A stretch of 46,626 bases of DNA from Candidatus Gastranaerophilales bacterium (GTDB lineage Bacteria; Cyanobacteriota; Vampirovibrionia; Gastranaerophilales; Gastranaerophilaceae): the NCBI GenBank assembly GCA_944325835.1, contig CALVBO010000010.1, positions 1-46,626 of the forward strand, given 5' to 3'. A program made the translations under genes and the position numbers. This document shows positions 19,981 through 44,816 of this stretch, piece after piece. The notes under the pieces were generated by a model. That model was not told where the DNA came from, ran no database searches, and worked only from the letters and a program-made list of their open reading frames with translations. Within the stretch, counting starts at the first letter, position 1. Each line of letters begins with the position of its first letter.

Positions 19981-20263
19981 TGGCATCACTCTGCCGAGAA
20001 AAATATTCCAGTGAATGGTTTTCGATAGGAAAACGCTAACGGCTTGCGGTTTCTTCCGCCTGTCAAATTAAAGATTTGAAACGGCAGTGATATTATGTTC
20101 GCCTGCTCGTCTTGCTCTTGCAAGTCGACACTGCGAACATCTGCTGACACATTCAGCGCGAGCAAGCTGAGCCATTCCAAGGCAAAACCACGCTTTTGCC
20201 TGTATGCCGTTAAGCACGAATCGAGCAACAAGAGGGGCGGAAGTGGCAAAGAACTGCTTTATT
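19981..20263 (+). repeat. Structured intergenic repeat, copy D (divergent)
   Basis: It matches copies C and E from the GGCACTCTGCCGAG segment through the CAAATT..GATTTGAAACGGC hairpin and ATTATG(C/T)TCGCCTGCTC, and ends with GAACTGCTTTAT. The first hairpin domain is missing, and the 3' part contains extra sequence between about 20115 and 20245. It ends 18 bases before a strong promoter. Confidence 0.8.
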
Positions 20264-22147: not shown

Positions 22148-22433
22148 TGTCCGAGAAAGGCTCGCGATAAGGAACGTGGCGTGAATGAGTTGCGAAGCAA
22201 CTCCCGCTCACGCAAGCGCGCCTTTTGAGTGGCACTCTGCCGAGCAAAACAATCCAGTGAATTGTTTTGTGAGAGGAAAGCGGGTTGACCTGCGTTACCC
22301 CGCCTGACAAATCAAAGATTTGAAACGGCGGTGATATTATGCTCGCCTGCTCCCCTCGTTCTCACGAGGTGACACTGCGAGCATCGGCTTACGCTTTGAG
22401 CAGGGCAAGCAGGCGACGAAGAACTGCTTTATC
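22148..22433 (+). repeat. Structured intergenic repeat, copy E (full length)
   Basis: About 286 nt and the closest relative of copy C. The third hairpin is CAAAACAAT/ATTGTTTTG (22245-22253, 22261-22269), whereas copy C has ACAAACGAT/ATCGTTTGT: the sequence differs at several pair positions but base pairing is kept. It ends 10 bases before the stop of the minus-strand gene at 22443. Confidence 0.9.
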
Positions 22434-23459: not shown

Positions 23460-23465
23460 GATAAA

Positions 23466-23510
23466 TGGTTGCGGGAGCTGGATTTGAACCAACGACCTTC
23501 GGGTTATGAG
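23466..23510 (-). repeat. att1: outer attachment site, 3' 45 bp of tRNA-fMet
   Basis: An exact 45-bp copy of the 3' end of the initiator tRNA (anticodon loop, T-arm, acceptor 3' strand and CCA), identical to 39428-39472 and 46553-46597. With the preceding AAA the shared block is 48 bp. The 5' half of the tRNA is missing, so it is a recombination scar and not a working gene. It marks the left end of element 1. Confidence 0.93.
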
Positions 23511-23890
23511 TTGTGAAACACTGTATTTGCAAGAGTTTTCACCTGTAACCACAATTTATCAGAAGTTGCCTCTGTTTGTTGCTATGAAAGAATTTTGGAT
23601 AAAATTTATTCTCTGATTTTATCAGATTTAATTTTGATTTATCAGAATTTTTGCAACCTTTTTGCAACTTAGGTAAAGGTATAAATGAAACTCACTTGGC
23701 GTAAAATGACAAAACTTTTGTGTTAAACCTCCTCCTTTACATCTGCATTCTACACAATACTTCTAAGGGGCTGGGGAGGGGCAAAAATATACAGAGACAC
23801 CCTCATTCTGAGCCACAAAAGAATTCCCTATTTTTTGTAAATATATCTAAAATGCTTGCTTTAAAGGCTTGTTTAGTATAGCATGCATAT
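23511..23890. promoter_or_regulatory. Left-end non-coding region of element 1 with candidate arm-type sites
   Basis: No gene in about 380 bases. It holds two tandem TTTTTGCAAC repeats 11 bp apart (23648-23657, 23659-23668), also present near the right end, and three copies of TTATCAGA (23556-23563, 23619-23626, 23639-23646). These are the sort of repeats bound by integrase arm domains and excisionase. The start of the SinI-type gene follows. Confidence 0.65.
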
Positions 23891-24634
23891 ATGGCAAACG
23901 TATCTATTTCTCTTGAAGAATTTAATATTTCAGACGAAGAAATAAAAATAATATATAAGAAATATAAGGAAGAATTAAAAGCTCCCGATGTTTTAGATGA
24001 TATTTTTAATATTATTTTAAAATATAGAAAAATGTCGCCTACATATAGTATAAGCAAGAATAAGTGTAGTTGCGAAAATTATATTAGACGATGGATTAAA
24101 GCTTACATGAAAGCAGATAAGAATTTACCAAGTAAACATGTTGCTAAGCCCAAAAAAGCATGTACTGATGATGTACTAAAATTTATAATTCAAAAAGCTA
24201 TTGGATGTTGCAGTGAAGAAATATGTAAATTTGAACGTTATCATAATTTATATATGTCTGCGGAAAACATTCAAGGTGCTTTATTAGAAGAATATATCGC
24301 AAATAATATTGAAAAACTTGGATGGATTTGGTGTAAAGGTTGCACGATTAAATCAACTGATTTTTGCAAAAAAGATGGTTCTGCTTTTTTACAAATTAAA
24401 AATAAATATAATACAGAAAATAGTTCAAGTAATAAAATAAGAGAAAACCTTCCTGTACAAGTTGAACCATGGTATAGACTTGGACGTAATGGAGAAAAGC
24501 GTTGGAATGCTTTAAATAGTATAATAAAAGAACACACCCAAAATGATTGCAACTGCAATCTAACCGAAGAAGATTATATTACATTTGTAAGCAAAGTTGC
24601 TGCTGAAAATAAGCAGATTGTGTCTGAGAAGTAG
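23891..24634 (+). CDS. SinI-family type II restriction endonuclease
   Basis: 247 aa. The C-terminal part matches my memory of the SinI endonuclease family (PF09570): SAENIQGALLEEYIA (with the Glu typical of the core), GWIWCKGCTIKSTDFC and the conserved LQIKNKYNTENSSSNKIR segment, in which Gln-Ile-Lys and Glu-Asn-Ser-Ser-Ser stand out. SinI isoschizomers cut GGWCC. The N-terminal 100 residues are helical. It converges on the cytosine-5 methyltransferase gene and their 3' ends overlap by 56 bases, giving a compact R-M pair. A GGWCC target is inference from the family. Confidence 0.75.
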   Translation: MANVSISLEEFNISDEEIKIIYKKYKEELKAPDVLDDIFNIILKYRKMSPTYSISKNKCSCENYIRRWIKAYMKADKNLPSKHVAKPKKACTDDVLKFIIQKAIGCCSEEICKFERYHNLYMSAENIQGALLEEYIANNIEKLGWIWCKGCTIKSTDFCKKDGSAFLQIKNKYNTENSSSNKIRENLPVQVEPWYRLGRNGEKRWNALNSIIKEHTQNDCNCNLTEEDYITFVSKVAAENKQIVSEK

Positions 24635-26012
24635 AATTTTTATTTTTAATTTTTTCAATTCTATTTCTTATGTCATTTTCCCATGAAATTTCATCTGTTA
24701 TTTTATATCTTGAAAATGGAAAATTAAATACTGTATATGTATTTCCAGTCATATCATCAAGTATTGCGCGACCTATTGCTTCACCTAATTTTATCGGTAC
24801 AGCATTACCTATTTGTTTGTATTGGTCTAAGATAGAGCCACATATTTTCCAATCCTGTGGGAATTCCTGTATACTCGCATATTCTTCAACACTTAGGGGT
24901 CTGTTTTCAATAGGATGTGCTAGGTCTGTTGCTGGCATTGTAGGATTTGTAACAAGTGTAGGGGAGGGTTTGCTAAAAGATAATCTACGGAAAAACCCCG
25001 TTTTACCTCCACCTAATTGAAGTTTTTTGCCCATTGCTTCAACTTGCATTTCAGGTGGTAAATCTTTCCAATATTGCCCTTCCTTTAGCATACGATAATA
25101 TTTAAGCCTTTTCTCAGGAAATTCAATAAAATGATGTTCTATATTTTTAGGCAAGTTCTCAATAGCATTTGATAAAGTCCTCCAAGGTGCAAGACCATAA
25201 ATTTTATCATTTGAATTTGTAGGTTTTAAGTATGGAACTTTTTTATTGCCTAATTTTGCAATTATAACAACTCTTTCTCTTATTTGTGGCGCCCCAAAGT
25301 TAGCAGCGTTGTATAAATTAAATGACACACTATAACCAAAACTTCTCAATTTATCTAAGATAATAAGCATTGCTCCACCTTTAATAGGTTCTTTAATATC
25401 CATATATGGGTATTCTGCAGAAAGTAAGCCTCTAACATTTTCAATAACGGCATATGTAGGTTTAATTTCACCAATAATATCTAAGTATTTTAAAAATACA
25501 TTACCTCTTGAATCTTCAAATCCTAAACGATTTCCAGCTGTACTAAATGCTTGACAAGGAGGACCACCAAAAATAACATCTACTTTTCTACCTTTTGGTA
25601 CACCTGCATATTCTAAAATTTCTTTTGCACTATATTTTTCTATATCTCCAATTAGCGCTATTTCAGGTTCATTTGTAGCAATAGTTAATCTACAAGCTTT
25701 ATTAAATTCACATGCAAGCATTGCTTTTATGCCTACATTTTTCATACCAATATCAAGCCCCATTGCACCAGAGAAAAAACTTAAAGCAACAATATCTGGA
25801 ATATCTTTTGCAATTCTTTTATGATCGTCTGGCTCAATTACAACATTATGCTCTTTAATATATTGGTTTAAATCTTGGCTATCAATAAGCCATTGAGAAC
25901 CTATCATCGTTGCTTTTAAATTATCTTCATGTATTAAACTTCTTATATATTGCGAGGTTACCTTTAATTTTTTAGCAACATCATTAACACTAAGCAATTC
26001 ACTCTTTTTCAT
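24579..26012 (-). CDS. DNA (cytosine-5) methyltransferase with N-terminal HTH
   Basis: 477 aa from the ATG at 26012; the longer frame begins at TTG 26054, which lies on the promoter -10 box. Residues 1-55 form an excisionase/MerR-like helix-turn-helix (SVNDVAKKLKVTSQYIRSLIHEDNLKATMIGSQW). The catalytic domain then has motif I (LSFFSGAMGLDIGM), IV (GGPPCQAFS with catalytic Cys), VI (AVIENVRGL), VIII (QIRERVVIIA), a variable target-recognition region, IX (KPSPTLVT) and X (QIGNAVPIKLGEAI). All motifs are intact. It protects against the convergent SinI-like enzyme. The added HTH may let it regulate transcription. Confidence 0.9.
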   Translation of the reverse strand: MKKSELLSVNDVAKKLKVTSQYIRSLIHEDNLKATMIGSQWLIDSQDLNQYIKEHNVVIEPDDHKRIAKDIPDIVALSFFSGAMGLDIGMKNVGIKAMLACEFNKACRLTIATNEPEIALIGDIEKYSAKEILEYAGVPKGRKVDVIFGGPPCQAFSTAGNRLGFEDSRGNVFLKYLDIIGEIKPTYAVIENVRGLLSAEYPYMDIKEPIKGGAMLIILDKLRSFGYSVSFNLYNAANFGAPQIRERVVIIAKLGNKKVPYLKPTNSNDKIYGLAPWRTLSNAIENLPKNIEHHFIEFPEKRLKYYRMLKEGQYWKDLPPEMQVEAMGKKLQLGGGKTGFFRRLSFSKPSPTLVTNPTMPATDLAHPIENRPLSVEEYASIQEFPQDWKICGSILDQYKQIGNAVPIKLGEAIGRAILDDMTGNTYTVFNFPFSRYKITDEISWENDIRNRIEKIKNKNSTSQTQSAYFQQQLCLQM

Positions 26013-26053
26013 AGGTCTAAATTTATTTCCTCTTCGAAACTTTACATAGACCA

Positions 26054-26150
26054 ATTATAACACTAGATTTTTCTTTTGTTAAATTATTAAGTTACAAAAT
26101 TTGTAACAAATTTTTAATGGTTTGAAAGCTAAGTTTATTCTTTCTATAAT
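26054..26150. promoter_or_regulatory. Divergent promoters of methyltransferase and Hachiman with shared palindrome
   Basis: Plus strand: TTGAAA (26122-26127), 17 bases, TATAAT (26145-26150) for the hamA gene. Minus strand: TTTAAC (26078-26083), 18 bases, TATAAT (26054-26059) for the methyltransferase. Between the two -35 boxes lies a perfect palindrome with 8-bp arms, GTTACAAA (26091-26098), central A, TTTGTAAC (26100-26107). A single regulator there could act on both systems. Confidence 0.8.
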
Positions 26151-26182
26151 TAGCATGTAAAAATTAAGTATTATGAAATCTT

Positions 26183-27088
26183 ATGCACGAAGCTCTTTAT
26201 AAACTAATTGAAAATACTATTATTTATGAATACTCATTACCTAATGTAGAAAAAAGGATTGAGAGAGTTCATTTATCTACAAAAGATGATGACTGCTTTG
26301 CCGTTAACAACACAGAATCACTTGTCGCTATTATATACAATTCAATATTAGACTATTCCTTTCAAGAGTTTGATTTGACCAAAGAATCTTACAAGTTGCT
26401 TTTAACCAAAGCTTTACAAAGAAAGTTTAAATTTAATAATGAAGCGACACAGCAAGCTAAACTAAAATATGGATTCTATGGTGAAGTTTTATTACATACT
26501 TTATTGCTTAAAATGTACGGGACAAAATGTTTAATTTGCAGGGGATATTTCTATAATCCACTTAATAATAGTGAAACTACTGGTTACGACGCATATCATA
26601 TAATTGAAAATATTGAAGAACAAAAAATAGAGTTGTGGTTTGGCGAAGTAAAATTCTATATAAAACCAGAGCAAGCAATTCAAAAAATTATGACAAATAT
26701 TGACAAAGCCTTATCTGACAGCTATTTAAATATAAATTTAATTGCAATGATAGATAAAAAAGATAAAATTACAAACGATAATTCTAAACTAAAAAGTATT
26801 ATTGAAAAACTTGATGATAACCCAGAAATAAATCTTGCAGATGAGCTAAAGAACAATGGCATGAGCTTGGTTTATCCTATATTCATTATTTTTGATATGA
26901 ACAATAAGAATTATGATGATTGTATAAGAAATATCGTTTCATATATTAAAGATAATTATAAAACTATTAATACAAGCTTAACAATAGACTATAAGTTATT
27001 TTTCATATTTATGCCAATTCAGAATGTAAAAGAAGTCAAGGAAGAAGTACTTAAATGGATAGAAGAAAAGAAGCCTGTTCTATCATAA
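26183..27088 (+). CDS. hamA: Hachiman defence nuclease HamA (DUF1837)
   Basis: 301 aa. It matches the HamA/DUF1837 plan: a helical N-terminus, then the core YGFYGEVLLHTLL (Gly-x-x-Gly-Glu), GYDAYHII (metal Asp) and ELWFGEVKFY (Glu-x-Lys), i.e. a PD-(D/E)xK-type nuclease active site near residues 100-155. In the described Hachiman system HamA is held inactive by the helicase HamB and, on sensing damaged or phage DNA, degrades DNA to abort infection. It overlaps the next gene by 34 bases and is driven by the strong promoter at 26122-26150. Identification is by motif and gene order, without a database search. Confidence 0.78.
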   Translation: MHEALYKLIENTIIYEYSLPNVEKRIERVHLSTKDDDCFAVNNTESLVAIIYNSILDYSFQEFDLTKESYKLLLTKALQRKFKFNNEATQQAKLKYGFYGEVLLHTLLLKMYGTKCLICRGYFYNPLNNSETTGYDAYHIIENIEEQKIELWFGEVKFYIKPEQAIQKIMTNIDKALSDSYLNINLIAMIDKKDKITNDNSKLKSIIEKLDDNPEINLADELKNNGMSLVYPIFIIFDMNNKNYDDCIRNIVSYIKDNYKTINTSLTIDYKLFFIFMPIQNVKEVKEEVLKWIEEKKPVLS

Positions 27089-29343
27089 AGGCTGTTAATG
27101 AATATAAAAATAAACAGATTAAAGATTATGAACTAATTAAAAAAGTTTGTAACTACTTTGATTTAATGAAAAGTGAAGATTTAACACAGGCGGATTTAAG
27201 TTTTTTAAAATATTTATCCAATGTATGCGGGATTCCCCACTATTTTGATTTATTAAAATTAGGCTTTAATAAAAATATTAACATTGATGATTATAATTTA
27301 CAAACGATTGCAGCAGAATTAAATGAAACAGCATTATACTTACCCAATATGTGTAAGGTGCATAAATATCAAAAAGAAATTTTAGATAAATTTGACACAA
27401 CCAAAATAAATAGATTTTTTCTTTCAGCAAGTACATCTTTTGGTAAGACACATTTAGTATATGATATTCTTTTAAAGATGAAATATGATAATATTGCTCT
27501 AATATTCCCCACAATTGCATTGTTAGCCGAAAATTTAGAGAAAATGTTATCAGATGAAAATTATATTGAAATACGTGAACATTATAAAATTCATACATTA
27601 AGTGATACTAGAGAATTGGGTGAACATAACATTTTTATATATACCCCTGAAAGATTTTTATCATTTACAGATAAACAAAATATTAAATTCGATTTTATCT
27701 TTGTTGATGAAATTTATAAAATTGATAATGAATTTATTTTGGATGAAGAAGCACAAGAAAATGAAAGGGATACAGCCTATAGAGTTGCAACATATCAATT
27801 AATTAGAAACACAAAAGATGTATTATTAGCAGGTCCTTATATTAAAATACCTGAGAAGCAAGACAGTTCTTTTAGACAATTTATTATTGAAAATAAAATT
27901 GAAATATTAGACTACAATAATTTTGAAATAGTAGATAAAACATATACAGATATTAAATCAGCAAATAATTATGTTATTGGTGAAGAATTAAAAATTGATT
28001 TCCATAAACAACAAAATAAGGGTGATAGATTAATAGAATTAGCAAAAACAATAATAAGCACAGGTGAAAATTGTATTATATATTGTTCTACAAGAGATAT
28101 GACAGAAAAAGCAGCAAAAAAAATATTAGATTCCAATAATTTCGCCAATCATTCTTGTGAAAAATACAATAGTTTTATTAAGCATTTAGAAAATAATTTT
28201 AATACTGAATGGATAGTAATAAAAGCATTAAAACAAGGGATAGGAATACATCATGGGTTAATTCCTAAATATATACAAAAAGAAATTATAAACCTATTTA
28301 ATAATGAATTAATAAATATTTTAATTTCTACAACAACAATAACAGAAGGTGTTAATACCTGTGCAAAAAATTTAATTGTGACAAACGATAAAAAAGGAGG
28401 AAAAGATTTAAAGAAATTTGATGCTCAAAATATTTCAGGTCGAGCTGGTCGTTTTTTAAAGCACTACAAAGGACGTGTAATAGTATTAAAAAATCATTTT
28501 ATGAATATTCTTGATAGTGATGGTTCTGATATTAAATATAAAAACTATGATAAAAATGTTAATAAAACCTCTGTAGATATTTTCTTTACCCCTAAAAAAT
28601 ATATGACATCACGTGATAAGGCTACAAAACTATCCATTATAAAAGAACAAAGACTTAAGGGATTGCCAAACGTCTTATTTGAACAGTATAAAACTGTAAG
28701 TAGAAAAGATAAAATGTTAGTTTATGATAATATATTAAAACTTTCAAGCAAAGAAAAAGTTGCTGTGTGGGATGCTGTTAATAGAATACATACTCGTTTT
28801 GATTTATCTTGGACTGGTTTTGAAATAATATTTGATAAAATATTAAAACCAATAATTACAAATAAACATTTATTAAGTCTTATTACTCATAAGACTGAAA
28901 AAAAATACTCCATTGTTATAGTAAAATTACATAATTATATTACTGGAGGGTTTAAAGCCCTTGTTAATTATGAAGTCAATAATAAGCAGAGTACTTATGA
29001 CCAAGCAATAAGATCTTCAGCAGATTTTGTCTATAATATACTAAAATATCATGTTGTTAAATACTTAGGCGTATTTGATTTAATGCACAAATATATTAAT
29101 TCACAAGCTAATAGTTGTAGTATGGAAGATATTCCTGGTATAGATAGATTGTTATCAAAACTAGAATATAATGCTTTTAGCGAAAAAGGACGATTAGCTA
29201 GTGATTACGGTGTCTCTAATAATTTATTAAATTATTATGAATATGAAGAAAACAATCAGGCAAAAGCAAATGATATAAAAAACTCCTTTGATAATTATGA
29301 ATTAGAATTATATGAAAAAGTAGAAAATATAATAAAAACATAA
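27055..29343 (+). CDS. hamB: Hachiman defence helicase HamB (SF2)
   Basis: 762 aa superfamily-2 helicase. The N-terminus is helical; motif I appears as SASTSFGKTH (Walker A), motif II as FVDEIYKID (DE-box variant), a Q-like lead-in VHKYQKEIL, and the C-terminal RecA lobe has GIGIHHGLIPKYIQ, STTTITEGVNTCAKN and ISGRAGRF (motif VI). This arrangement resembles Ski2/Hel308-type helicases, as HamB does. The overlap with hamA implies coupled translation and a complex. The motifs are intact. HamB would sense DNA ends or structures and release the HamA nuclease. Confidence 0.8.
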   Translation: MDRRKEACSIIKAVNEYKNKQIKDYELIKKVCNYFDLMKSEDLTQADLSFLKYLSNVCGIPHYFDLLKLGFNKNINIDDYNLQTIAAELNETALYLPNMCKVHKYQKEILDKFDTTKINRFFLSASTSFGKTHLVYDILLKMKYDNIALIFPTIALLAENLEKMLSDENYIEIREHYKIHTLSDTRELGEHNIFIYTPERFLSFTDKQNIKFDFIFVDEIYKIDNEFILDEEAQENERDTAYRVATYQLIRNTKDVLLAGPYIKIPEKQDSSFRQFIIENKIEILDYNNFEIVDKTYTDIKSANNYVIGEELKIDFHKQQNKGDRLIELAKTIISTGENCIIYCSTRDMTEKAAKKILDSNNFANHSCEKYNSFIKHLENNFNTEWIVIKALKQGIGIHHGLIPKYIQKEIINLFNNELINILISTTTITEGVNTCAKNLIVTNDKKGGKDLKKFDAQNISGRAGRFLKHYKGRVIVLKNHFMNILDSDGSDIKYKNYDKNVNKTSVDIFFTPKKYMTSRDKATKLSIIKEQRLKGLPNVLFEQYKTVSRKDKMLVYDNILKLSSKEKVAVWDAVNRIHTRFDLSWTGFEIIFDKILKPIITNKHLLSLITHKTEKKYSIVIVKLHNYITGGFKALVNYEVNNKQSTYDQAIRSSADFVYNILKYHVVKYLGVFDLMHKYINSQANSCSMEDIPGIDRLLSKLEYNAFSEKGRLASDYGVSNNLLNYYEYEENNQAKANDIKNSFDNYELELYEKVENIIKT

Positions 29344-29431
29344 ATTAGTTATTCTAATTTTTGCAACAAATTATAGTATTCTTTACTTACACCAATTCCT
29401 TTCTCGTCATAATAAAAACAAAGGAGGATGT

Positions 29432-29689
29432 ATGGAAGAAATAAAAGAAAAGACTATAGAAGAAGTTGTACAAGATAAACTAAATGATGCAGGGGGGGTA
29501 TTATTAGAAGTTAAGTGTTTAGTGAGACTTACAGCATTAGCATATTATTCTTACATTATAGATGATGAATTACAGTTACAGGAAAATTTAGCATATTATT
29601 TTATTTTGCGCAATATTATCCATACAATTAACCAAATTGATAATATCTTAGATCCTATAAAAATATCTAAAATAGACTGCAATCAATAA
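29432..29689 (+). CDS. Hypothetical small protein between Hachiman and GmrSD-like genes
   Basis: 85 aa with a strong ribosome site (AAAGGAGG) and ATG at 29432. It is predicted all-helical and acidic, without a signal peptide, ending in SKIDCNQ. It resembles small helical regulators or antitoxins by size only; no family recognised. It follows hamB by about 90 bases on the same strand and converges on the GmrSD-like gene. It could be a third component or an accessory of the Hachiman operon. Confidence 0.65.
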   Translation: MEEIKEKTIEEVVQDKLNDAGGVLLEVKCLVRLTALAYYSYIIDDELQLQENLAYYFILRNIIHTINQIDNILDPIKISKIDCNQ

Positions 29690-29715
29690 CAAGTACTTAT
29701 CAATGATTTTTTACA

Positions 29716-31581
29716 TTATAAATTAAACAATTGTATTGCTTCTTCTGATAATTTTTTAGTTCTTGCTTTTATATGGTCAATTGTCCAAACTTCTTTATCC
29801 ACTACATCTGTATTTAGATAAAGACCATTTCTATATCCAATATATTTATTGTCCTTTTTACGTTCTCTTTTTTCTTCAAAAGATTTTTGGCCTAATGAAG
29901 AATTATAACCAGAAATAGTTAAATTCCCAATTGTGTGAACATATGTCTCTTGATATTCTTTTGCTTTTTTATAATCTCCATTAGCAATCATATCTACCCA
30001 ACATTTGGGTATATTTTCACCTTCTGGGAAAATATGCTCTATTGTCCAAATGTAATTTTTCTTTTCATCTCTTTCCCACAGGTTAGTATATATTTCTTTT
30101 GTTTGATATTTTTGCTCTAATGAGCATAAAATATATCGTGTAGCCTCTTTGTTAATATCATATAAAGAATCTTGCAATTTCTTTTTAAATTCATCATCTG
30201 AAGCCGATACTTCTACCAATTTCTTTTTGATAATATCGTAAATAGACATATTGCATTCCACTTTTATGTCTTCGATAATATTCATAAATAAAGCTGTTAA
30301 ACTTCTTGTACTAGGGGTATCAGTTAAATTCCTACGTACAAAAAATCTAGTTAGCAAATTTATGATTTTTTTCATTTCACTATCATAACTTTCGTTCCAA
30401 TTTAAATCTTTGTTTTTTATCGATAAATATAACAACAATAAATAGGAAGGTGCACCTTGAATTCTAGCCAAATTTAACAACTCTTCTGCAAAAGTTATTT
30501 TTTTATCCGTATTATTAATTAAAATAGCATATGCACTAGAGGCCTCTTTCATATTCTCTAGAAAAACATCATAATCATATTGAATTAGTTTCTCATAAAT
30601 ATTCATTAGTGTTGTTTTTGTAGCTAAATATGCCAATGGAAACATTTTAGAATCATTTCCAGTTTTAAAAGGTTTATTAAGTTCTTCTCTAAAAGCATTA
30701 TAATATTGTCTAAAAAAACGTTCTTGAACTGAATACTCTTCTCCAATATTATTTTTAATTTTTATCCAATCATTATAACAAGACTCTGATTTACCATCTT
30801 TATCAGAAATAGAAATTAACAAATTTTGCATTAAATCAATTGCTGTTAATGGGACACCCCTGTTATTTAAAGATTCAAATAGCATATATGCATCCTGGTG
30901 AGTATCAACTTGTATAACAACAATAATTGCATTATTAAATTTATTTACTAAATTAAATAATGTTGTAATTGGATTTTTGCTTTTTAAATCTTTGTTCACA
31001 ATATCAGTCGATTCCAGAAAATTATTAACAAGCCTATCAAAATATCTAAATGCCTTATATATTTTACGATTTCCCGCATTTGCTTTCTTTTCAGAAAAAT
31101 CTATTATGCCACATTCACCCAATAGAGCTTGATAGTCAGCTTGATTATTATCTTGAATTTGTAATTGAAGACGCGGAATATATTTACCATCAATTTTTAT
31201 TGCCAATTCTTTTTTTATATTATTTAAATCTGTAATCTCATCTTCATCTAAAATATAGCCACTATCATTTTCTGTTTTATATTTTAATATTTTAGTATAT
31301 AAAACTGCTAACAATATAGAAAGAGTTGTAATTCTTTGCTGACCATCAATTACTTCAGCCACTTTTATATTTGAATACAAATCCTCTTTATCATTTGCAT
31401 TCACGCAAATTGATGAACCTAAAAAATATCCATCGTTATTCTCAATAATATCATTAAATAATAAGTTCCATTCACTTTGCCCCCAAGTATATTTTCTTTG
31501 ATACTTTGGTATTTTATATATTATATAACCATTTACTGGAAAAATTTTTGAAATTTCTAAAGGTTCTGTTTTATTAATCAT
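29716..31581 (-). CDS. GmrSD-like DUF262/DUF1524 (HNH) type IV restriction enzyme
   Basis: 621 aa, both halves in one chain. The N-terminal DUF262 domain has YKIPKYQRKYTW, FLGSSICV, VIDGQQRITTLSILLAVLY (the conserved nucleotide-binding DGQQR) and, near residue 240, DAYMLFESLNNRGVPLTAIDLMQNLL. The C-terminal DUF1524 domain holds the His-Asn-His nuclease: TIEHIFPEG, HTIGNLTISGYNSSLGQKSF, with His of EHIFPE as the first catalytic residue. GmrSD proteins cleave modified (glucosylated hydroxymethylcytosine) phage DNA; others of this fold have a different target. The layout is complete, so probably active. It lies alone on the minus strand. Confidence 0.87.
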   Translation of the reverse strand: MINKTEPLEISKIFPVNGYIIYKIPKYQRKYTWGQSEWNLLFNDIIENNDGYFLGSSICVNANDKEDLYSNIKVAEVIDGQQRITTLSILLAVLYTKILKYKTENDSGYILDEDEITDLNNIKKELAIKIDGKYIPRLQLQIQDNNQADYQALLGECGIIDFSEKKANAGNRKIYKAFRYFDRLVNNFLESTDIVNKDLKSKNPITTLFNLVNKFNNAIIVVIQVDTHQDAYMLFESLNNRGVPLTAIDLMQNLLISISDKDGKSESCYNDWIKIKNNIGEEYSVQERFFRQYYNAFREELNKPFKTGNDSKMFPLAYLATKTTLMNIYEKLIQYDYDVFLENMKEASSAYAILINNTDKKITFAEELLNLARIQGAPSYLLLLYLSIKNKDLNWNESYDSEMKKIINLLTRFFVRRNLTDTPSTRSLTALFMNIIEDIKVECNMSIYDIIKKKLVEVSASDDEFKKKLQDSLYDINKEATRYILCSLEQKYQTKEIYTNLWERDEKKNYIWTIEHIFPEGENIPKCWVDMIANGDYKKAKEYQETYVHTIGNLTISGYNSSLGQKSFEEKRERKKDNKYIGYRNGLYLNTDVVDKEVWTIDHIKARTKKLSEEAIQLFNL

Positions 31582-31755: not shown

Positions 31756-31971
31756 TTAAAACTCTTCAAACAGATTAGACGGCTTAATCCCTAATGCTCT
31801 TGCTATTTTAAACACATTTTCAACCGTAGTATTTCTTTCCCCCCTTTCAATCATTCCAATAAAATTAGGGGACATATCAAGAATTTCTGCTAATTCTAGC
31901 TGTGTTAATTCTTTATCAAGTCTTAAAGATTTTAGCCTTTTCCCGAATTTTTGTAAATCTTTTTTGCTCAT
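31756..31971 (-). CDS. Small XRE-family regulator
   Basis: 71 aa, essentially just a Cro/C1 helix-turn-helix (KRLKSLRLDKELTQLELAEIL and SPNFIGMIERGERNTTVENVF). It is divergent from a cassette of small membrane and exported proteins across an intergenic region that carries an 11-bp perfect inverted repeat (31997-32031), the probable operator. Such minimal XRE proteins regulate phage-like or R-M (controller) genes; distance argues against it being the controller of the SinI-type system. Confidence 0.85.
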   Translation of the reverse strand: MSKKDLQKFGKRLKSLRLDKELTQLELAEILDMSPNFIGMIERGERNTTVENVFKIARALGIKPSNLFEEF

Positions 31972-34192: not shown

Positions 34193-36859
34193 ATGTACAA
34201 AAATTTGAAAGAATATGTAGAAAAAGCTTATGGCAAAGAAATTGCAAACAATGAGAAAAAACAGGAATGTCCTAAATGTGGACATAAAACATTTTCTTTG
34301 TATGGAGAAGATTTAAACAAGGCAAAATGTTTTCATCCTAGCTGTGGATTACATTTAAATCTTAATATTATCAATGGAAGTGTAGATTACAAAAATATTG
34401 TAGCTGAAAAATTTGCACTAAAAGCACATGAACATTTATTTACAAAAGAGCAATGTGGACAGCCAATTCAACCATTTATTTATGCAAACAAAATGCGTAA
34501 AATTTCAGAAAATATTTTGAGGCGTTCTGATATTGGCGCAATTCCACTTGATTATAATGTCAAAAAGGAAAATGATGATTTAATCAATGAATTAGAACAA
34601 AAGATTCAATATGAATCAGACGCAGAAAAAAAAGAAAAACTACAAAACAAGTTAAATGAACTTTTGGAGTTTATTATTAAATTACAAAAATTCATTAATA
34701 ATAACTACAACCGACTCTTATTTTTATATCGTGATGAAAAAGAATTGATAACTCAAATCAAAACAAGAAAACCTTATATTGATACTAAGACTTTTCAAAT
34801 CTTAAAAGTACAGTCAAAAGCAGGGATTTTCAATGCCCGACTGCTTTCACCTGATGAATTTACCACAAAAAAACATAAGAATTTAGTTGAAAAAATGATT
34901 ATTGTTGAAGGCGAATTTGACCAGCTTGCTTTTGCAACTTGGGCTTTGCATAATACATTGCCTATTCAATCTTGCGCTTTGGGTGGAGCAAATGGCGACA
35001 TTGAAACTGCCTTAAAAATATCAGAGAAACACTGTATTTTATATGACAACGATGACGCAGGCAAAAATGTACTGGAAAGGGCAAAAGAATTACGCCCAAT
35101 TAGAGGCGTAACAACGCCTGAGCCGTATAAGGATATTGATGAGTACATCAATAGTTTTAGTGATGATAAAAGTTGTAGAAATGCAGTCATTGATTTGCTA
35201 AATAGTGCAAAATTCTATCACAGAGAATTTGATGGTATTAGAAAACAAATCAGAGCAGTAATGAAATTGCCCGATGTAAAAATACTTGATAGAAATCAGG
35301 CTGTAGCAGACATTGTTATAAGCGAGTTGTTGCAACGTGGGAAATTTATCCAAGATAACAATTACCCTTACTTTTTCCCAGATGATAGCAAACATATCAT
35401 ACCATTAATCAATAATAATGAAGATTTTAGAATATTATTGAATCGTATGGGTGTAAATGCCGCAAAAGATTTTTACCCTTTTGTTGCCGAAGAACTACGA
35501 ACATTTTGCCGCACAAATGGAACACAAATAGAGACCTACAATTCATGTCACTACGATTCTAAAAACTTTGCGATATACCTTTTTAATAATGATAGCATTA
35601 TTTATAAAATTACGGCTGACAATATTGAAACTCTTGAAAATGGTGATGAGGGTGTACTATTTAATTTCCGAGCAGAACATGAGCCGTTTGAATTTGTTGA
35701 AATAGATGAAAATAAAGACTACTTCAAAGAGTATATTCTGGACTATATGAATCTTGATGAATCAGGGATATTGAGTACGAACGAACAAAAAGAATTATTA
35801 CGTACTTGGGCAATGGCAACATTTTTTAATTCAATTATGCCTTCAAAGGTTATTCTGGCTGCAATAGGAGAAAAAGGTAGTGGAAAAACTTCTACAATGA
35901 GACGATTAGGAATTATACTTTATGGCTCAAAATATAATGTTACACCACTACCAACTAAGGCTGATGACTTTGACGCATTAATCACAAACTCTCATCTTGT
36001 AATACTTGATAATGTTGATACAGGTACACCGTGGCTAAATGATAAATTAGCTTCTGTATCAACAGGACAGACAATTCAAAAAAGAGAATTATACTCCGAT
36101 ATGAAATTGCTTAAATTTGATACAAAAACCTTTATTGGAGTAACTTCAAGAACTCCTCAATTTACACGTGATGATGTTGCTGACAGATTAATTTGTATAA
36201 ACTTCAAAAGAATTAAAGATGAAAAAGGCAATGATAGTTTTATTCCTGAAAATGATCTGATTCAAGGTGTCTTAGATAATCGTAATCAAATCTTATCTTA
36301 CATTATGCTTGAATTACAAAAAATATTAAAAGCTCTTGAAGAAACCAAAGACTACAGTTATAGGACAAAATTCCGAATCGCTGACTTCGCAAAATTTGGT
36401 TTAAGGATAAATGATGTTATTGGTAGAAAAGAAGAATTTGCAAGTATTTTGGATAAAGTTTGCCAGACACAAAAAGATTTCGCTGTTGAGGAAGATAGTC
36501 TTGTTTATGCACTTAAAATCTTTTCTAAAAAGCAACCTAAACCTCATAAAATGTCAGGATTTGAACTACATAAACAACTTTTATTTATTGCAAATGAAGA
36601 TAACTTTGATATACCTGAATTTCGAGCAAAATATAAAAGTGTAAAATCACTTACACGCAGAATTGCAAACATTAAAGGTAATATCTCAAATGATGTCAAA
36701 ATAACTGTGTATAAGGAACGATCAAACCAAAAGTTTTATAAAATTGAACTAATGGACAAAGATTTTGAATTGCCACTTAATAGTGATAACCTTTTTGATA
36801 AAGCATTGGATAAGGCACAAAACATTGATTCAAAGAATAAAGGGGGTAATAATGAATAA
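34193..36859 (+). CDS. Primase-helicase of the element (CHC2-like zinc finger, Toprim, AAA/SF3-type helicase)
   Basis: 888 aa. Residues about 20-55 have a zinc motif (CPKCGHKTFSLYG...CFHPSCG), residues 225-300 a Toprim domain (MIIVEGEFDQLAFATWAL, LYDNDDAGKNVLERA), and residues about 550-690 a helicase/ATPase with Walker A GEKGSGKT, Walker B VILDNVDTG and sensor/Arg-finger FIGVTSRTPQFTRDDVADRLI. This layout is that of replication proteins from satellites and integrative elements (compare P4 alpha and PICI primases). It probably unwinds and primes the excised element. Preceded by AAAGGAG. All motifs look intact. Confidence 0.85.
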   Translation: MYKNLKEYVEKAYGKEIANNEKKQECPKCGHKTFSLYGEDLNKAKCFHPSCGLHLNLNIINGSVDYKNIVAEKFALKAHEHLFTKEQCGQPIQPFIYANKMRKISENILRRSDIGAIPLDYNVKKENDDLINELEQKIQYESDAEKKEKLQNKLNELLEFIIKLQKFINNNYNRLLFLYRDEKELITQIKTRKPYIDTKTFQILKVQSKAGIFNARLLSPDEFTTKKHKNLVEKMIIVEGEFDQLAFATWALHNTLPIQSCALGGANGDIETALKISEKHCILYDNDDAGKNVLERAKELRPIRGVTTPEPYKDIDEYINSFSDDKSCRNAVIDLLNSAKFYHREFDGIRKQIRAVMKLPDVKILDRNQAVADIVISELLQRGKFIQDNNYPYFFPDDSKHIIPLINNNEDFRILLNRMGVNAAKDFYPFVAEELRTFCRTNGTQIETYNSCHYDSKNFAIYLFNNDSIIYKITADNIETLENGDEGVLFNFRAEHEPFEFVEIDENKDYFKEYILDYMNLDESGILSTNEQKELLRTWAMATFFNSIMPSKVILAAIGEKGSGKTSTMRRLGIILYGSKYNVTPLPTKADDFDALITNSHLVILDNVDTGTPWLNDKLASVSTGQTIQKRELYSDMKLLKFDTKTFIGVTSRTPQFTRDDVADRLICINFKRIKDEKGNDSFIPENDLIQGVLDNRNQILSYIMLELQKILKALEETKDYSYRTKFRIADFAKFGLRINDVIGRKEEFASILDKVCQTQKDFAVEEDSLVYALKIFSKKQPKPHKMSGFELHKQLLFIANEDNFDIPEFRAKYKSVKSLTRRIANIKGNISNDVKITVYKERSNQKFYKIELMDKDFELPLNSDNLFDKALDKAQNIDSKNKGGNNE

Positions 36860-37031
36860 ATTATACCCCGTTTTTGAAGCTGCTATTATACTACACATCT
36901 CAGAAAGTACACTTTACAGGTGGATTCATCACAAGAAAATATCTCATATCAAAATAGGTTCTAGAGTCTTATTTTCACAAGAGAATCTTGAAGAATTTCT
37001 TAATAAGAATACAATCAACAAGATAGACTAA
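36852..37031 (+). CDS. xis: Excisionase-like helix-turn-helix protein
   Basis: 59 aa from ATG 36852 behind AAAGGGGG, overlapping the end of the primase-helicase gene by 8 bases; the open frame extends to 36765 but that part is inside the other gene. A winged HTH of the MerR/excisionase type: FEAAIILHISESTLYRWIHHKKISHIKIGSRVLFS. Such proteins bend DNA at att sites and direct the integrase towards excision. Upstream of the integrase gene by 150 bases, with a terminator in between. Confidence 0.85.
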   Translation: MNKLYPVFEAAIILHISESTLYRWIHHKKISHIKIGSRVLFSQENLEEFLNKNTINKID

Positions 37032-37179: not shown

Positions 37180-38289
37180 ATGGCTATAAGAAAAAATAAG
37201 AAAACAAGCAACTGGGAATTTGATTATAAAGACCTTAGAGGTAAACGGCGAATAAAGAAAGGTTTTAAAACCAAAGCAGAAGCAGAAAAAGCCTATAATA
37301 AAATGGTTGAAGATTTGAACAAAGGTTTAAATCCAGTTAATGCAAAAATCACATTAAAAGAAGCTGGCGAGTTATATCTAAGACTTCATGCAAGTTCAAA
37401 TTGCAAACCTTCTACTTACAAAACTTACTGTGGATACTTGGAAAATCTTTTAGTTCCATTCTTTGGCGAGCTTAATATCAATGAAATTAGTCCTATACTT
37501 ATAAAAGAATTCATAAAACAAATGCAAGACAAAGGACGCCAAAATTCAACGATAAACAAATATGTAAAATTTATGAGTGCAATCTACAACTTTATGATTG
37601 ACAACGATGCTATAACTAGAAATCCTATAGCAAGGATCAAATCATTAAAAGAAATAAAAAATGATAAGATTAGAGCTTTATCTACAGAAGAAGTCCAGGC
37701 TTTATTAACTAAAACAAAGGCTATTTATCCAGATTTCTACCCATTATTATTTACAACTTTGTTTACAGGTATGAGGCGTGGCGAAATATTAGCTCTTAAT
37801 TGGGATTCTATAAACTGGGTTAGAGGTAGAATAACAGTCGATAAAAACTATGTCAACGGTAGATTAGGGACACCGAAGTCAAGTAAAACAAGATATGTTG
37901 ATATGAGTGATGAACTTGCAAGAGTCTTAAAAGAATGGCGTCTTGCTTGCCCTCATAGTGAATTAAATCTTGTATTTCCTAATAACGAGGGTAAATACCA
38001 AAGTGCAGATAATATGATAAAAAGAAGATTTATTCCATCTTTGAATCGTGCGGGTATAGACTTAATCAGGTTCCACGATTTAAGACATACATATGCTAGT
38101 TTACTGTTAGCTAACGGCGCCCCGATGAAATATGTACAAACCCAGCTGGGACACGCTTCAATTACTATGACAATGGATTTATACACCCATTTATTGCCGG
38201 AAATTAACGATAAGTGTGTTAATCTACTCAACAATATTGTAAGTAATACTATTGAATATTCTGAGCAATTCATAAAATTCGGGACATAA
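37180..38289 (+). CDS. int: Tyrosine site-specific integrase of element 1
   Basis: 369 aa. The N-terminal arm-binding domain is WEFDYKDLRGKRRIKKGFKT and the core-binding domain spans about 60-155. The catalytic domain has Arg in TGMRRGEILALNW, His-x-x-Arg in FHDLRHTYASLLL, the third-motif His in TQLGHASITMTM, and the nucleophile Tyr in DLYTHLLPE. This is the Int(Tn916/phage)-type family. The AGGAG box precedes the ATG. It lies near the tRNA-proximal end, as usual for tRNA-integrating elements. Complete, so excision or integration is possible. Confidence 0.93.
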   Translation: MAIRKNKKTSNWEFDYKDLRGKRRIKKGFKTKAEAEKAYNKMVEDLNKGLNPVNAKITLKEAGELYLRLHASSNCKPSTYKTYCGYLENLLVPFFGELNINEISPILIKEFIKQMQDKGRQNSTINKYVKFMSAIYNFMIDNDAITRNPIARIKSLKEIKNDKIRALSTEEVQALLTKTKAIYPDFYPLLFTTLFTGMRRGEILALNWDSINWVRGRITVDKNYVNGRLGTPKSSKTRYVDMSDELARVLKEWRLACPHSELNLVFPNNEGKYQSADNMIKRRFIPSLNRAGIDLIRFHDLRHTYASLLLANGAPMKYVQTQLGHASITMTMDLYTHLLPEINDKCVNLLNNIVSNTIEYSEQFIKFGT

Positions 38290-39420: not shown

Positions 39421-39427
39421 TTTTAAA

Positions 39428-39472
39428 TGGTTGCGGGAGCTGGATTTGAACCAACGACCTTCGGGTTATGAG
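39428..39472 (-). repeat. att2: junction between elements 1 and 2, tRNA-fMet 3' copy
   Basis: The same 45 bp as att1 and as the 3' end of the intact tRNA. It serves as right end of element 1 and left end of element 2. The sequence beyond it (TGCAGGGC) differs from the tRNA 5' half, so no functional tRNA remains here. Confidence 0.93.
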
Positions 39473-39559
39473 TGCAGGGCTTTAATGGATTTTTATAATA
39501 AAATCAATAATTTCAGCCTTATTGAATTAAATCCTAATTATATGAATTAGCATATAAAG

Positions 39560-39582
39560 TGTTCACAGAATGCACATGGATT
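39560..39582. promoter_or_regulatory. Left-end arm-type repeat of element 2
   Basis: A 23-bp sequence that recurs with three mismatches and in the same orientation at 46511-46533, near the other end of the element. It overlaps the stop codon of the SLOG gene by one base. Candidate integrase arm site. Confidence 0.7.
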
Positions 39583-40022
39583 TACAGTAAAGTAACTTTA
39601 ATTAATCCCTTTTTCTCTCGACCTTGAGCGTATTCTACAATCTTTCTGGAGTTACCCATACCAGGGTAGGCTATTAAATAGTCGCTATGTTGTACCATAT
39701 AGCGATTTGCTTGTACTATTGCATACCGCATTGGTACTTTTTCCAATCCTTCTGGATAAAAAGTTCCGTCAAATCCTTCGGGAGCTTCTCTATTTTGGTT
39801 GAGAGCATAAGGTGCAAGCAAATATAGTTTAATATCTTTATGGCATTTTTTAGCGCCTCTTAAAACCCTTATAACTAAACTATCAAATAAGCCGTAGTGC
39901 CCTACGGTAAAGGTAGTAACACCATATTCAGTGATGTGTTTTTCAACAGCTTCCATGAGTTGCTCTTCTATACTGCTGGAAGCATATCTGCTTCCAATAA
40001 AGAAACACGTTTTACCATTCAT
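39582..40022 (-). CDS. SLOG-like nucleotide-binding domain protein
   Basis: 146 aa. The start FFIGSRYASSS, the strand-helix VRVLRGAKKCHKDIKLYLLAPYALNQN, and the C-terminal SDYLIAYPGMGNSRKIVEYAQ (Gly-x-Gly-Asn) fit the SLOG Rossmann-like superfamily, related to DprA/LOG and the DUF1273-like phage and Firmicutes proteins. Members bind nucleotides or derived signals and often appear in defence or signalling contexts. No partner nuclease or effector is adjacent. Mapped as the leftmost gene of element 2. Confidence 0.78.
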   Translation of the reverse strand: MNGKTCFFIGSRYASSSIEEQLMEAVEKHITEYGVTTFTVGHYGLFDSLVIRVLRGAKKCHKDIKLYLLAPYALNQNREAPEGFDGTFYPEGLEKVPMRYAIVQANRYMVQHSDYLIAYPGMGNSRKIVEYAQGREKKGLIKVTLL

Positions 40023-40184
40023 ACGCTATCCTTACTTACATTAAGCTTTTCATTATATAAGCTTCATAGCCTTATTATATGAGTGATTTGCCATCATGTA
40101 TATTACCCATGTGAATGATATTAAGTCATAAATATACCTAATAATTCTGTGGAAGTTTTGACCTATATACTTTAAGTTGTTGAT

Positions 40185-40514
40185 ATGGGTAAGGAACTAA
40201 AAAAGGTATTTGGCAACAGAGTAAAGCATTATAGAAACTTGTTAGGTTATTCGCAAGAAAAATTAGCAGAATTAGTCGGAATATCCTCTCATACTATCAG
40301 CTATATTGAACGTGGAAAAAATTTTATAAGTATGACTAAACTATCTGTATTGTGTAATGCACTACAGGTTGAACCTTATCAGTTATTTATTGATAGAGAT
40401 TTTAGCCCCGATGTTGATAAAATTAATGAGATTAACAGGTTGTTAACAACAGCAAATGAGAAACAGTTAAATATAGTTATAGGGCTTATACATAGCATAC
40501 TTGATATTAATTGA
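40185..40514 (+). CDS. XRE-family regulator
   Basis: 109 aa with an N-terminal Cro/C1 helix-turn-helix (VKHYRNLLGYSQEKLAELVGISSHTISYIERGKNF) and a helical tail (EINRLLTTANEKQLNIVIGLIHSIL). No ribosome site is obvious; TTGACC (40159-40164) and a TGATAT lie close to the start, so the message may be nearly leaderless. Probably a local regulator, possibly of the SLOG gene, which is divergent. Confidence 0.82.
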   Translation: MGKELKKVFGNRVKHYRNLLGYSQEKLAELVGISSHTISYIERGKNFISMTKLSVLCNALQVEPYQLFIDRDFSPDVDKINEINRLLTTANEKQLNIVIGLIHSILDIN

Positions 40515-40908
40515 TTAAGTCCATAATCCAGTAATATCAATGGTTTTAATCCCATTGAAAGTTTCATGAAAACTCCGCCCTCTGTGTGAGGTTTAGCGCG
40601 CACATGCCAGTGCCTTATTGAAACTACTCTATCCTCCTATTTACAGCAGTTTTCTATTGTAAACTAGGCAAATACTCAATTTTTGTCAACTTTTTAATCA
40701 TAATTCTTTTTCTAATGAATTATGGACGCGTTAGAATGCGTTTTAATGCGGGTTAAATGAAAAATAGGTATTCTGGTATACCCGATTTCGTGCTTTCTAT
40801 TTAAACATGTTGAGGACTTGCATTTAACTTAATAAGTTTAAAAACTCTGATTATATTTTCTGGTGTAGGAAGTTTCCACAGTGGAAACTCATAATCGGAG
40901 TTACTGAA
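40515..40908. promoter_or_regulatory. Non-coding region with a 17-bp perfect palindrome
   Basis: No supported gene in 394 bases. GTTTCCAC (40872-40879), central A, GTGGAAAC (40881-40888) is a perfect palindrome 20 bases before the ATG of the next operon, in the usual operator position. Nothing else is clear. Confidence 0.6.
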
Positions 40909-41079
40909 ATGCCACAAGAAAAAGCTGTTAAGGGGTTTAACCTGCCCCACGACTTAATTAAAGAGTTAATGAGGTTAAAAGAGGTAAAATCTATCAATCT
41001 TTCAAAGTGGGTTGAGAAGATTTTAAGAAAAGAAGTTATTAAAGAATTAGGAGGGATTAAAGAAGATGTTGAAGAATAG
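40909..41079 (+). CDS. 56-aa ribbon-helix-helix-like protein
   Basis: Short ORF behind the palindrome: MPQEKAVKGFNLPHDLIKEL then a helix and NLSKWVEKILRKEVIKEL. The pattern (beta-strand KGFNLP, helix, turn with Ser/Asn, helix with WVEKILR) fits a ribbon-helix-helix DNA-binding protein such as a CopG-like repressor. It overlaps the next gene by 14 bases and leads a four-gene operon. It might bind the 40872-40888 palindrome. Confidence 0.68.
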   Translation: MPQEKAVKGFNLPHDLIKELMRLKEVKSINLSKWVEKILRKEVIKELGGIKEDVEE

Positions 41080-41395
41080 TAAAGTAAGTGATTTAACAGT
41101 ATATAAGGATATTTTAACTGTGTTGGATAGACGAAAACTCAGGCATGGCGCGGATAGTACGGCTAGTGCAGTAATTAGAAAATACGTAGAATTTGCACTT
41201 GAAGCCGATTTTGCGCTTACTTACAGTAACTATAATACAACACTCCATAATTGCTGTATTGCCATTTATAGCGATATTAAAGCTGATAATAACAGGGTTA
41301 AGTCAACAGAAATTAATTTGCTTGATGACATTGAACGAGAGCTGAAAAAGCCACACCAGAGAGTGATTGAGGAGGAAATCGACTATGTCTATTGA
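41066..41395 (+). CDS. Hypothetical protein, second gene of the element-2 operon
   Basis: 109 aa with GGAGGG upstream. A helical protein containing DILTVLDRRKLRHGADSTASAVIRKYVEFALEADFALTYS and a charged C-terminus (LLDDIERELKKPHQRVIEEE). Ala-rich helices with an Arg/Lys face suggest nucleic acid or protein binding. No family recognised. Overlaps the 41385 gene by 11 bases. Confidence 0.68.
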   Translation: MLKNSKVSDLTVYKDILTVLDRRKLRHGADSTASAVIRKYVEFALEADFALTYSNYNTTLHNCCIAIYSDIKADNNRVKSTEINLLDDIERELKKPHQRVIEEEIDYVY

Positions 41396-41651
41396 AAATA
41401 CAGAGATGTTTCAGGCGCACGGGTGGCGTGCACGTGCAAAAGCCTACATAAAGATGAAAATAATTGACGGTAAAGACCGCATAAACGCGCTTCAAGCCGT
41501 TGAGGGCGTTAAAATGCCCCTGTATCTGGCTAGGGGTGGTGTAACGCAAGAGGTCTTAAAGGATATTTTTATCAAAAAGGTGGCTTCGGCGGTGGCGCAC
41601 GCGTTAGATACGGAAAAGTACAATACGATTATTACGGGAATGAGGTTGTAA
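41385..41651 (+). CDS. Hypothetical protein, third gene of the operon
   Basis: 88 aa from the ATG at 41385 behind GGAGGAAATC; the longer frame from 41367 begins within the previous gene's end and lacks a ribosome site. Basic N-terminal half (HGWRARAKAYIKMKIIDGKDRINALQAVEGVKMP) and a C-terminal helix (DIFIKKVASAVAHALD). No family recognised. The next gene begins directly after its stop. Confidence 0.68.
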   Translation: MSIENTEMFQAHGWRARAKAYIKMKIIDGKDRINALQAVEGVKMPLYLARGGVTQEVLKDIFIKKVASAVAHALDTEKYNTIITGMRL

Positions 41652-42113
41652 ATGGCTAAAAATAAGGATTTCGAGGGGCTAGACTTTAGCCCCTCTCTGG
41701 AAGAAAAAACGGTTAATAACGTTATTAGCATACGCGCAAATAGCGATAACATAAAGGATTTAAACGCCCTCAAAGCGCAACATGTAAATGTGTCTGGGTG
41801 GGTCAACGAGCTTATATCCAATGGATTTAAGCATACGCGCCGTTTAAGTCCGCAAGAAGTAAGCAGGAATTTAAGGGATTTTAGACCTGTCAATTTATTG
41901 GTGCATAAGTCCGTGGCAGTTCTATTGGAGCGCGCTCTGGCTTTTAACGGCTCTTATGAAGTCGGAAAATTTTTAAGTTTGCTTTTATCACACCAGCCCG
42001 ATTTTATTGCTGGCAATGCGATAGCGTACGGGGTTACCGATGAAACATTTGAGCAGAAAATGAAACATCTGGATTTTTCGTTAAAAGACCAAGAAACACC
42101 GCACATTGAATAA
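41652..42113 (+). CDS. Hypothetical protein, fourth gene of the operon
   Basis: 153 aa; the ATG follows the previous stop TAA immediately (41649-41651), so translation is probably coupled. A polar start (MAKNKDFEGLDFSPSLEEK) is followed by a segment that looks like a ribbon-helix-helix (VISIRANSDNIKDLNALKAQHVNVSGWVNELISNGF) and a helical C-terminal part (NLLVHKSVAVLLERALAFNG). A second RHH-like protein in one operon, just before a terminator and an iteron array, invites the idea of a partition or replication control protein. Inference only. Confidence 0.68.
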   Translation: MAKNKDFEGLDFSPSLEEKTVNNVISIRANSDNIKDLNALKAQHVNVSGWVNELISNGFKHTRRLSPQEVSRNLRDFRPVNLLVHKSVAVLLERALAFNGSYEVGKFLSLLLSHQPDFIAGNAIAYGVTDETFEQKMKHLDFSLKDQETPHIE

Positions 42114-42130
42114 TTTAATAAAAAAGTATT

Positions 42131-42155
42131 ACCGCCGTAACGGCGGTTTTTCTTT
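42131..42155 (+). terminator. Rho-independent terminator of the element-2 operon
   Basis: ACCGCCG (42131-42137), loop TAA, CGGCGGT (42141-42147), then TTTTCTTTT. 18 bases after the last stop codon. Confidence 0.88.
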
Positions 42156-42165
42156 TGGCTGTAAA

Positions 42166-42321
42166 TGTATTACCTGTAATACACGTATTATTGGTAATAC
42201 ATCAATAGTGGCAAATTGTAATACCTGTAATACATTGCATGAATTGTAATACAGTTTTTCAGCTATTTTAGCAGGATTTCCAAAAATTTGAGGATAAAAG
42301 GCGGTGTAATACTTGTAATAC
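42166..42321. repeat. Iteron-like array of nine GTAATAC motifs
   Basis: TGTAATAC occurs exactly at 42175, 42217, 42226, 42245, 42305 and 42314, with a GGTAATAC at 42193 and inverted copies TGTATTAC at 42166 and GTATTAT at 42185. Three pairs are spaced exactly 9 bp. The array lies in a 500-base gene-free region between two convergent transcription units, where a replication origin, centromere or regulatory array would be expected. Confidence 0.85.
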
Positions 42322-42407
42322 ACCGATTTTGTAAAAATGGGCTGTGTGCCAATAATAACACTTAATTTCAGCTTTATTATGACGGCGGTTTTGTCTGATT
42401 AAATTTA

Positions 42408-42456
42408 GAGATGTCCGAGTTCATCTCATCTCGGACAAGTCGCTACGCGACATCTC
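42408..42456. repeat. 49-nt nested inverted repeat (branched hairpin)
   Basis: GAGATGTC (42408-42415) is inverted as GACATCTC (42449-42456), enclosing two further hairpins: TGTCCGAG/CTCGGACA (42412-42419, 42430-42437) and GTCGC/GCGAC (42439-42443, 42447-42451). The outer and first inner stems share GTC, so they can only form alternately. It could be a single-strand origin, nick site or structured RNA. Nothing coding overlaps it. Confidence 0.7.
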
Positions 42457-42595
42457 CAATTCAAAGCGGGTAATTATACAAAAATTCTGAAAATAGGCGA
42501 AAGTCTACGTATAAACGGTATAACCGGCATGGTTTAATCTCTAAGACGTTCAAGCAAGTTATTGCTTTAAAAACGCATTATTATAGCTTAAATAT

Positions 42596-42625
42596 GCTTG
42601 AACGCTTACTTATACGCGTTCAAGC
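42596..42625. repeat. 10-bp inverted repeat GCTTGAACGC / GCGTTCAAGC downstream of the recombinase gene
   Basis: Perfect arms (42596-42605, 42616-42625) with a 10-base spacer, 7 bases before the end of the serine recombinase gene. A single ACGTTCAAGC lies at 42546. The half-site also occurs upstream of the operon, so it may be a recombination or operator site instead of a terminator. Confidence 0.65.
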
Positions 42626-42631
42626 TATAAT

Positions 42632-44815: not shown

Positions 44816-44816
44816 T

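Follow-up and report, generated by a model that had tools for sequence, protein, structure and literature searches.

Recurrent placement of a Hachiman lineage beside GGNCC-core restriction–modification systems, and a defence island carrying such a pair on a tRNA-Met integrative element in Gastranaerophilales

Why bacterial defence systems cluster, and whether neighbours in such clusters cooperate, is an open question. It is raised in compact form by a contig of Candidatus Gastranaerophilales, of which we analysed a stretch of 46,626 nucleotides (the window). The earlier note, made from the sequence alone, had proposed a SinI-like restriction–modification (R-M) system, a Hachiman-like pair and a GmrSD-like enzyme at 23891–31581, acting as three independent systems with intact catalytic motifs. 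Five open reading frames were indeed found there, and Pfam and PADLOC profiles place all of them as proposed (RE_SinI, HTH-C5 methyltransferase, HamA, HamB and GmrSD_N–GmrSD_C), with matches of 90–1000 bits that are not due to chance. All active-site residues checked are present in the restriction enzyme, the methyltransferase, HamA, HamB and the GmrSD-like protein. Families and motifs were thus read correctly; the independence of the systems is doubtful, and the mobile element carrying the island had been overlooked. R-M, Hachiman and GmrSD-like enzymes are each known kinds of system. The genes of the island are:

23891–24634, + strand: type II restriction endonuclease of the SinI/AvaII family, predicted target GGWCC (RE_SinI PF09570, 104.8 bits against a cut-off of 22; AvaII 6g3b, 90 bits)
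24579–26012, − strand: C5 methyltransferase with N-terminal HTH_17 (PF00145, 196.6 bits; HTH_17, 36.2 bits)
26183–27088, + strand: HamA nuclease (PF08878, 91.8 bits; PADLOC HamA1, 384 bits)
27055–29343, + strand: HamB helicase of the short lineage, 762 aa (PADLOC HamB1, 999 bits over residues 1–761)
29432–29689, + strand: 85-aa open reading frame with homologues near GmrSD genes in two other loci (L105 and L106)
29716–31581, − strand: one-chain GmrSD_N–GmrSD_C (DUF262–DUF1524) protein (PF03235, 118.7 bits; PF07510, 65.8 bits)

The restriction enzyme aligns with PDB 6g3b, which is AvaII and cuts G^GWCC (PMC7337904). Its residues E133, D157 and K170, forming the PD-(D/E)XK site, are identical to the AvaII catalytic residues E123, D147 and K163, and H118, M122 and E125 are identical to the tested AvaII DNA contacts H108, M112 and E115 (PMC7337904). 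These identities support GGWCC as the target, although they fall short of proof. The enzyme adjoins its cognate C5 methyltransferase, as in other SinI/AvaII systems; the two genes are convergent and overlap by 56 bp at their 3′ ends, and PADLOC scores them as REase_II (116 bits) and MTase_II (351 bits). The methyltransferase contains the motifs GGPPCQ, ENV, QxRxR and GNAVP. Its full open reading frame (24579–26054, − strand) has an upstream TTG start, but the ATG at 26012 is the probable true start, because homologous cassettes begin there and an RBS-like GAGGAAA precedes it. In the methyltransferase tree, the window protein groups with those of two SinI systems (support 100/99), and the nearest relative of the cassette is a SinI system on a L. 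plantarum plasmid, with 55% identity between the methyltransferases. Unlike AvaII/SinI, the window methyltransferase carries an N-terminal HTH_17, the cassette adjoins Hachiman on an integrative element and its specificity is a prediction. Site counts were dropped as proof of this specificity: GGWCC is scarce in the window (4 sites versus 22 expected), yet CCWGG and the relatives show the same depletion. Both words are strongly under-represented over 1–46626, and a weaker form of this bias extends across the host family.

The second system is Hachiman by its composition, with a HamA (DUF1837) nuclease carrying the D-GExK motif and an SF2 helicase HamB encoded with it. The two genes overlap by 34 bp, as in two relatives (L052 and L053). 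Alignment with relatives from further bacteria shows HamA D136 and G154-E155-K157 to be invariant, as are the HamB motifs TSFGKT, DEIY and GRAGR. Hachiman of E. coli ECOR31 (PDB 8vx9) shares the D-GExK motif, the SF2 helicase and the overlapping genes, but has a longer HamB (8vx9_B, 1174 aa). In sequence comparison, AbpB (8zue) scores higher against the window HamB, at 101 bits, than ECOR31 HamB does, at 44 bits. E. coli AbpAB likewise combines a HamA-domain nuclease with a helicase, and AbpB is the nearest solved helicase; this match, however, is confined to about residues 113–479 of the window HamB, and the PADLOC models that match the pair are HamA1 and HamB1, unlike AbpAB. HamAB has been shown to unwind DNA ends and to be unleashed by DNA damage, with host DNA damage activating it in the absence of phage (PMC12278908). 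By analogy with these other members, the window pair may act by damage-triggered DNA degradation (PMC12278908).

The third protein combines DUF262 and DUF1524 in a single chain, like the type IV GmrSD, BrxU and SspE enzymes, and it retains DGQQR and an HNH region. In contrast to these, its best PADLOC profiles are Orf5 (217 bits) and HEC-06 (205 bits), with the type IV profile at 47 bits; the nearest solved structures cover only the DUF262 part. The modified-DNA restriction that the earlier note assigned to it is a candidate role; the protein is probably a separate layer of defence, modification-directed or otherwise DNA-directed.

An integrative element of roughly 16 kb, inserted in a tRNA-Met gene at its 3′ end, carries the island as exchangeable defence cargo. 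The further features of this element and its borders are:

23460–23511, − strand: left attachment repeat (tRNA-Met 3′ end), direct repeat with 39422–39473 and with a third copy at 46551–46598
31756–31971, − strand: HTH phage-type repressor (phrog_8, 51.5 bits)
34193–36859, + strand: Toprim primase/helicase of the element (PF13155, phrog_239), with a homologue in the G006 element
36855–37031, + strand: excisionase-like (Xis) HTH protein (phrog_66)
37180–38289, + strand: tyrosine integrase (PF00589, 99.7 bits)
39422–39473, − strand: attachment repeat between two tandem elements
46554–46626, − strand: tRNA-Met(CAT), truncated on its 5′ side where the contig stops, bearing the third attachment copy (Rfam tRNA, ARAGORN)

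The first attachment interval (16 kb) thus holds the island, the repressor, the primase, the Xis-like protein and the integrase between direct repeats of a tRNA 3′ end, as is typical of a tRNA-targeted integrative element. The Rfam tRNA match reaches 53 bits at 46557–46626, and ARAGORN on L037 also supports tRNA-Met. In a search for capsid-hijacking and packaging genes of phage satellites, with some small genes outside the scan, integrase, Xis, repressor and primase alone were recognised. In a same-genus relative (G006), the same tRNA-Met site is occupied by an element (L038) whose integrase is 88% identical and whose primase is related, but whose cargo is SoFic, Gabija, a type IV restriction enzyme and a Mokosh-like helicase. 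Copies of the repeat also occur in another genome (G002), close to a type III R-M system. The defence genes of this Gastranaerophilales host thus sit on a mobile element whose cargo can be exchanged; in the literature searched, we found no paper that treats Gastranaerophilales together with defence systems and R-M. Between the middle and right attachment copies lies a second, 7-kb tandem element (39422–46598) with its own tyrosine integrase (44676–45815) and a serine recombinase (42632–43261). Just left of the first element, a 102-bp direct repeat (20056–20157 and 22300–22401, 81% identical) flanks two genes.

The host family provides a first measure of whether Hachiman and R-M meet by chance. 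HamA occurs in 35 of its 383 genomes, and 34 loci also encode HamB. A DNA methyltransferase lies within about 8 kb in 22 of these 34 HamAB loci, versus 9 of 40 GmrSD neighbourhoods that served as control (Fisher p = 3e-4; p = 0.004 after rough collapse of near-copies). GajA was tried as a second control, with too few loci. In the HamB tree, 16 loci fall into a short lineage (689–769 aa) and 18 into a long one. The short lineage stands beside type II R-M in 11 of its 16 loci, and C5 R-M neighbours were found in nine of the 16 versus none of the 18 long-HamB loci. Three long-HamB loci adjoin DpnII-type m6A R-M, so that restriction of R-M neighbours to short-HamB loci holds for C5 systems alone. 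Partner kinds in the family comprise SinI, EcoO109I, Eco47II, Bsp6I, HpaII, Alw26I and a DpnII-like system with two methyltransferases. In one locus (L054, 3519–4694), HamB is internally deleted (391 aa), with R-M still in the locus.

A wider scan yielded 63 relatives of the window HamB; scans of genome contigs and viral contigs with a single-protein query returned no relatives, and an alignment query did find them. A methyltransferase lies within 6 kb in 18 of the 64 loci examined. Many HamAB pairs of this lineage, mostly from Bacteroidota, have no R-M within this distance, and R-M is hence dispensable for the lineage rather than an obligatory partner. Where a type II partner is present, it nearly always belongs to the GGNCC-core families (SinI/AvaII, EcoO109I, Eco47II). 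Such pairs occur in gut Clostridia, Gastranaerophilales, Campylobacterota, Gracilibacteria and one viral contig: SinI in the window, EcoO109I in L052–L054 and six Clostridial-type loci, and Eco47II in L075/L178/L179, L176, L142, L184, L163 and L207. The sole exception among identified restriction enzymes is of MutH type (L143); further loci without a GGNCC enzyme have a C5 methyltransferase with DUF262 (L208) or m6A methyltransferases (L169/L170). The order in L208 (1526–8268) is C5 methyltransferase, a 733-aa DUF262-like protein and HamA–HamB.

Gene orders differ between these bacteria, and the genes are closely packed. Gut Clostridia have a tight cluster (Vsr)–C–M–R–HamA–HamB with 17–22 bp from restriction enzyme to HamA, whereas Nitratifractor and Gracilibacteria have HamA–HamB–M–R with 8–10 bp between HamB and methyltransferase (L142, L184). 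M and R are fused in Nitratifractor, where a 601-aa C5 methyltransferase–Eco47II protein lies directly 3′ of hamB (L142, 8315–10120). The IMG/VR contig (L207) has the order M–R(Eco47II)–HamA–HamB; this cassette adjoins a 645-aa protein resembling phage DNA polymerase.

Eco47II cuts GGNCC. The targets of AvaII and EcoO109I are GGWCC and RGGNCCY, and both enzymes share a common catalytic core and produce unusual 3-nt 5′ overhangs (PMC7337904). Among 146 host-family genomes with about 98 C5 loci, we counted four SinI, one EcoO109I (Hachiman-linked) and no Eco47II systems, the zero being the weaker figure because its search matched nothing in any control genome either. The GGNCC-core families thus make up five loci, about 5% of C5 systems in these genomes. 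At base rates of 5–20%, at least five GGNCC partners among seven pairings have p = 6e-6 to 5e-3, values that are rough, since pairings were counted by hand after the data had been seen and the base rate comes from one family. In the methyltransferase tree, Hachiman-linked and free GGNCC systems interleave, and supported branches force at least five label changes. The tree implies that the pairs probably arose by repeated recruitment; because it mixes linked and free systems, descent from a single ancestral pair would not be the whole story. As far as could be found, the pairing of this HamB lineage with GGNCC-core R-M is new: no description of a recurrent, specificity-biased pairing turned up in the literature searched, which misses many subscription journals.

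Across several phyla and in differing gene orders, a damage-sensing system thus recurs next to restriction enzymes that share one class of specificity. Together with the methyltransferase enrichment near Hachiman over GmrSD loci, this makes the proposed independence of the window systems doubtful. Recurrent side-by-side placement in such distant bacteria suggests that R-M and Hachiman work together. The mobile cargo comprises a standalone R-M system of predicted GGWCC specificity, a HamAB operon and a GmrSD-like nuclease; that R-M and HamAB act in series is the reading we favour, at about an even chance (roughly 0.5). The restriction enzyme would cut unmethylated incoming DNA at the predicted GGWCC sites; HamB, sensing DNA ends or damage, might then engage the cut or repair-intermediate DNA and release the HamA nuclease, which would destroy DNA and abort infection where restriction alone falls short. 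In functional terms, the simplest interpretation is action in series: restriction makes ends, and DNA damage unleashes HamAB (PMC12278908). The HamAB mechanism and the AvaII chemistry are here taken over from the literature on other members, and we infer both the serial action and a reason for the GGNCC preference. The pairing predicts that Hachiman is fed by the ends that restriction leaves or by the processing of these ends. In Streptococcus thermophilus, a 7.2-kb island of Hachiman and type II R-M protects far more strongly than Hachiman alone (PMC12322248). The comparison there is with Hachiman only and not with R-M only, and the text states neither the specificity of the R-M system nor a general pairing or GGNCC preference. 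Several points speak against action in series. HamB favours long 3′ overhangs, versus the 3-nt 5′ overhangs of AvaII (PMC7337904), so that cut ends would need processing. Furthermore, many HamAB pairs of the lineage have no R-M nearby, and SinI R-M is also found without Hachiman (G034, G059 and G100).

The functional coupling of R-M and HamAB has simple stacking as its alternative. R-M, Hachiman and GmrSD may have gathered in a mobile hotspot and act independently, their pairing being hitch-hiking on shared mobile elements, and we rate this only a little short of even odds. The exchangeable cargo of the hotspot fits it well, as do the SinI R-M systems that stand alone as convergent cassettes in other genomes of the host family, the frequency of R-M in defence islands in general and the many HamAB pairs of this lineage that stand alone. 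Accretion leaves unexplained, however, why the partners are GGNCC-core systems from several methyltransferase branches, a class with such a small share of host-family C5 systems, and why the spacing is 8–22 bp in Clostridia, Campylobacterota and Gracilibacteria. A stronger form of the serial reading is put forward more tentatively, with the odds somewhat against it. Here a single lineage of Hachiman would be coupled in function to GGNCC restriction: different restriction enzyme families with a shared core site would have been recruited time and again next to the same HamAB because HamAB acts on the DNA that they cut, and the two would be one two-stage system. An addiction module, in which loss of the element leaves GGWCC unmethylated, residual restriction enzyme cuts and HamAB amplifies the damage to death so that the element is retained, is very improbable: R-M does sit on an element with integrase and Xis, and damage to host DNA can activate HamAB when no phage is present (PMC12278908), but addiction by itself predicts no GGNCC preference.

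Two sequence features lie where the R-M and hamAB genes diverge:

26011–26054, − strand: candidate site of self-control, an imperfect inverted repeat (TTGGTCTA...TAGACCTA) around the start of the methyltransferase gene
26054–26150, both strands: back-to-back promoter-like sites for the methyltransferase (−, 26082–26054) and hamAB (+, 26122–26150)

As judged by consensus match only, no promoter match in the island is better than these two promoter-like sites, with 11 of 12 positions each. Between them lies a perfect 17-bp palindrome (26091–26107), with arms of this size in 7% of shuffles. It was not found in the related SinI cassettes of the host family and was rejected as a shared operator; joint control of R-M and hamAB is thus unsupported, because the palindrome is not conserved. 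The inverted repeat at the methyltransferase start, in contrast, is conserved: two further SinI R-M cassettes from the host family retain it and a third retains part of it, and none of the three has Hachiman.
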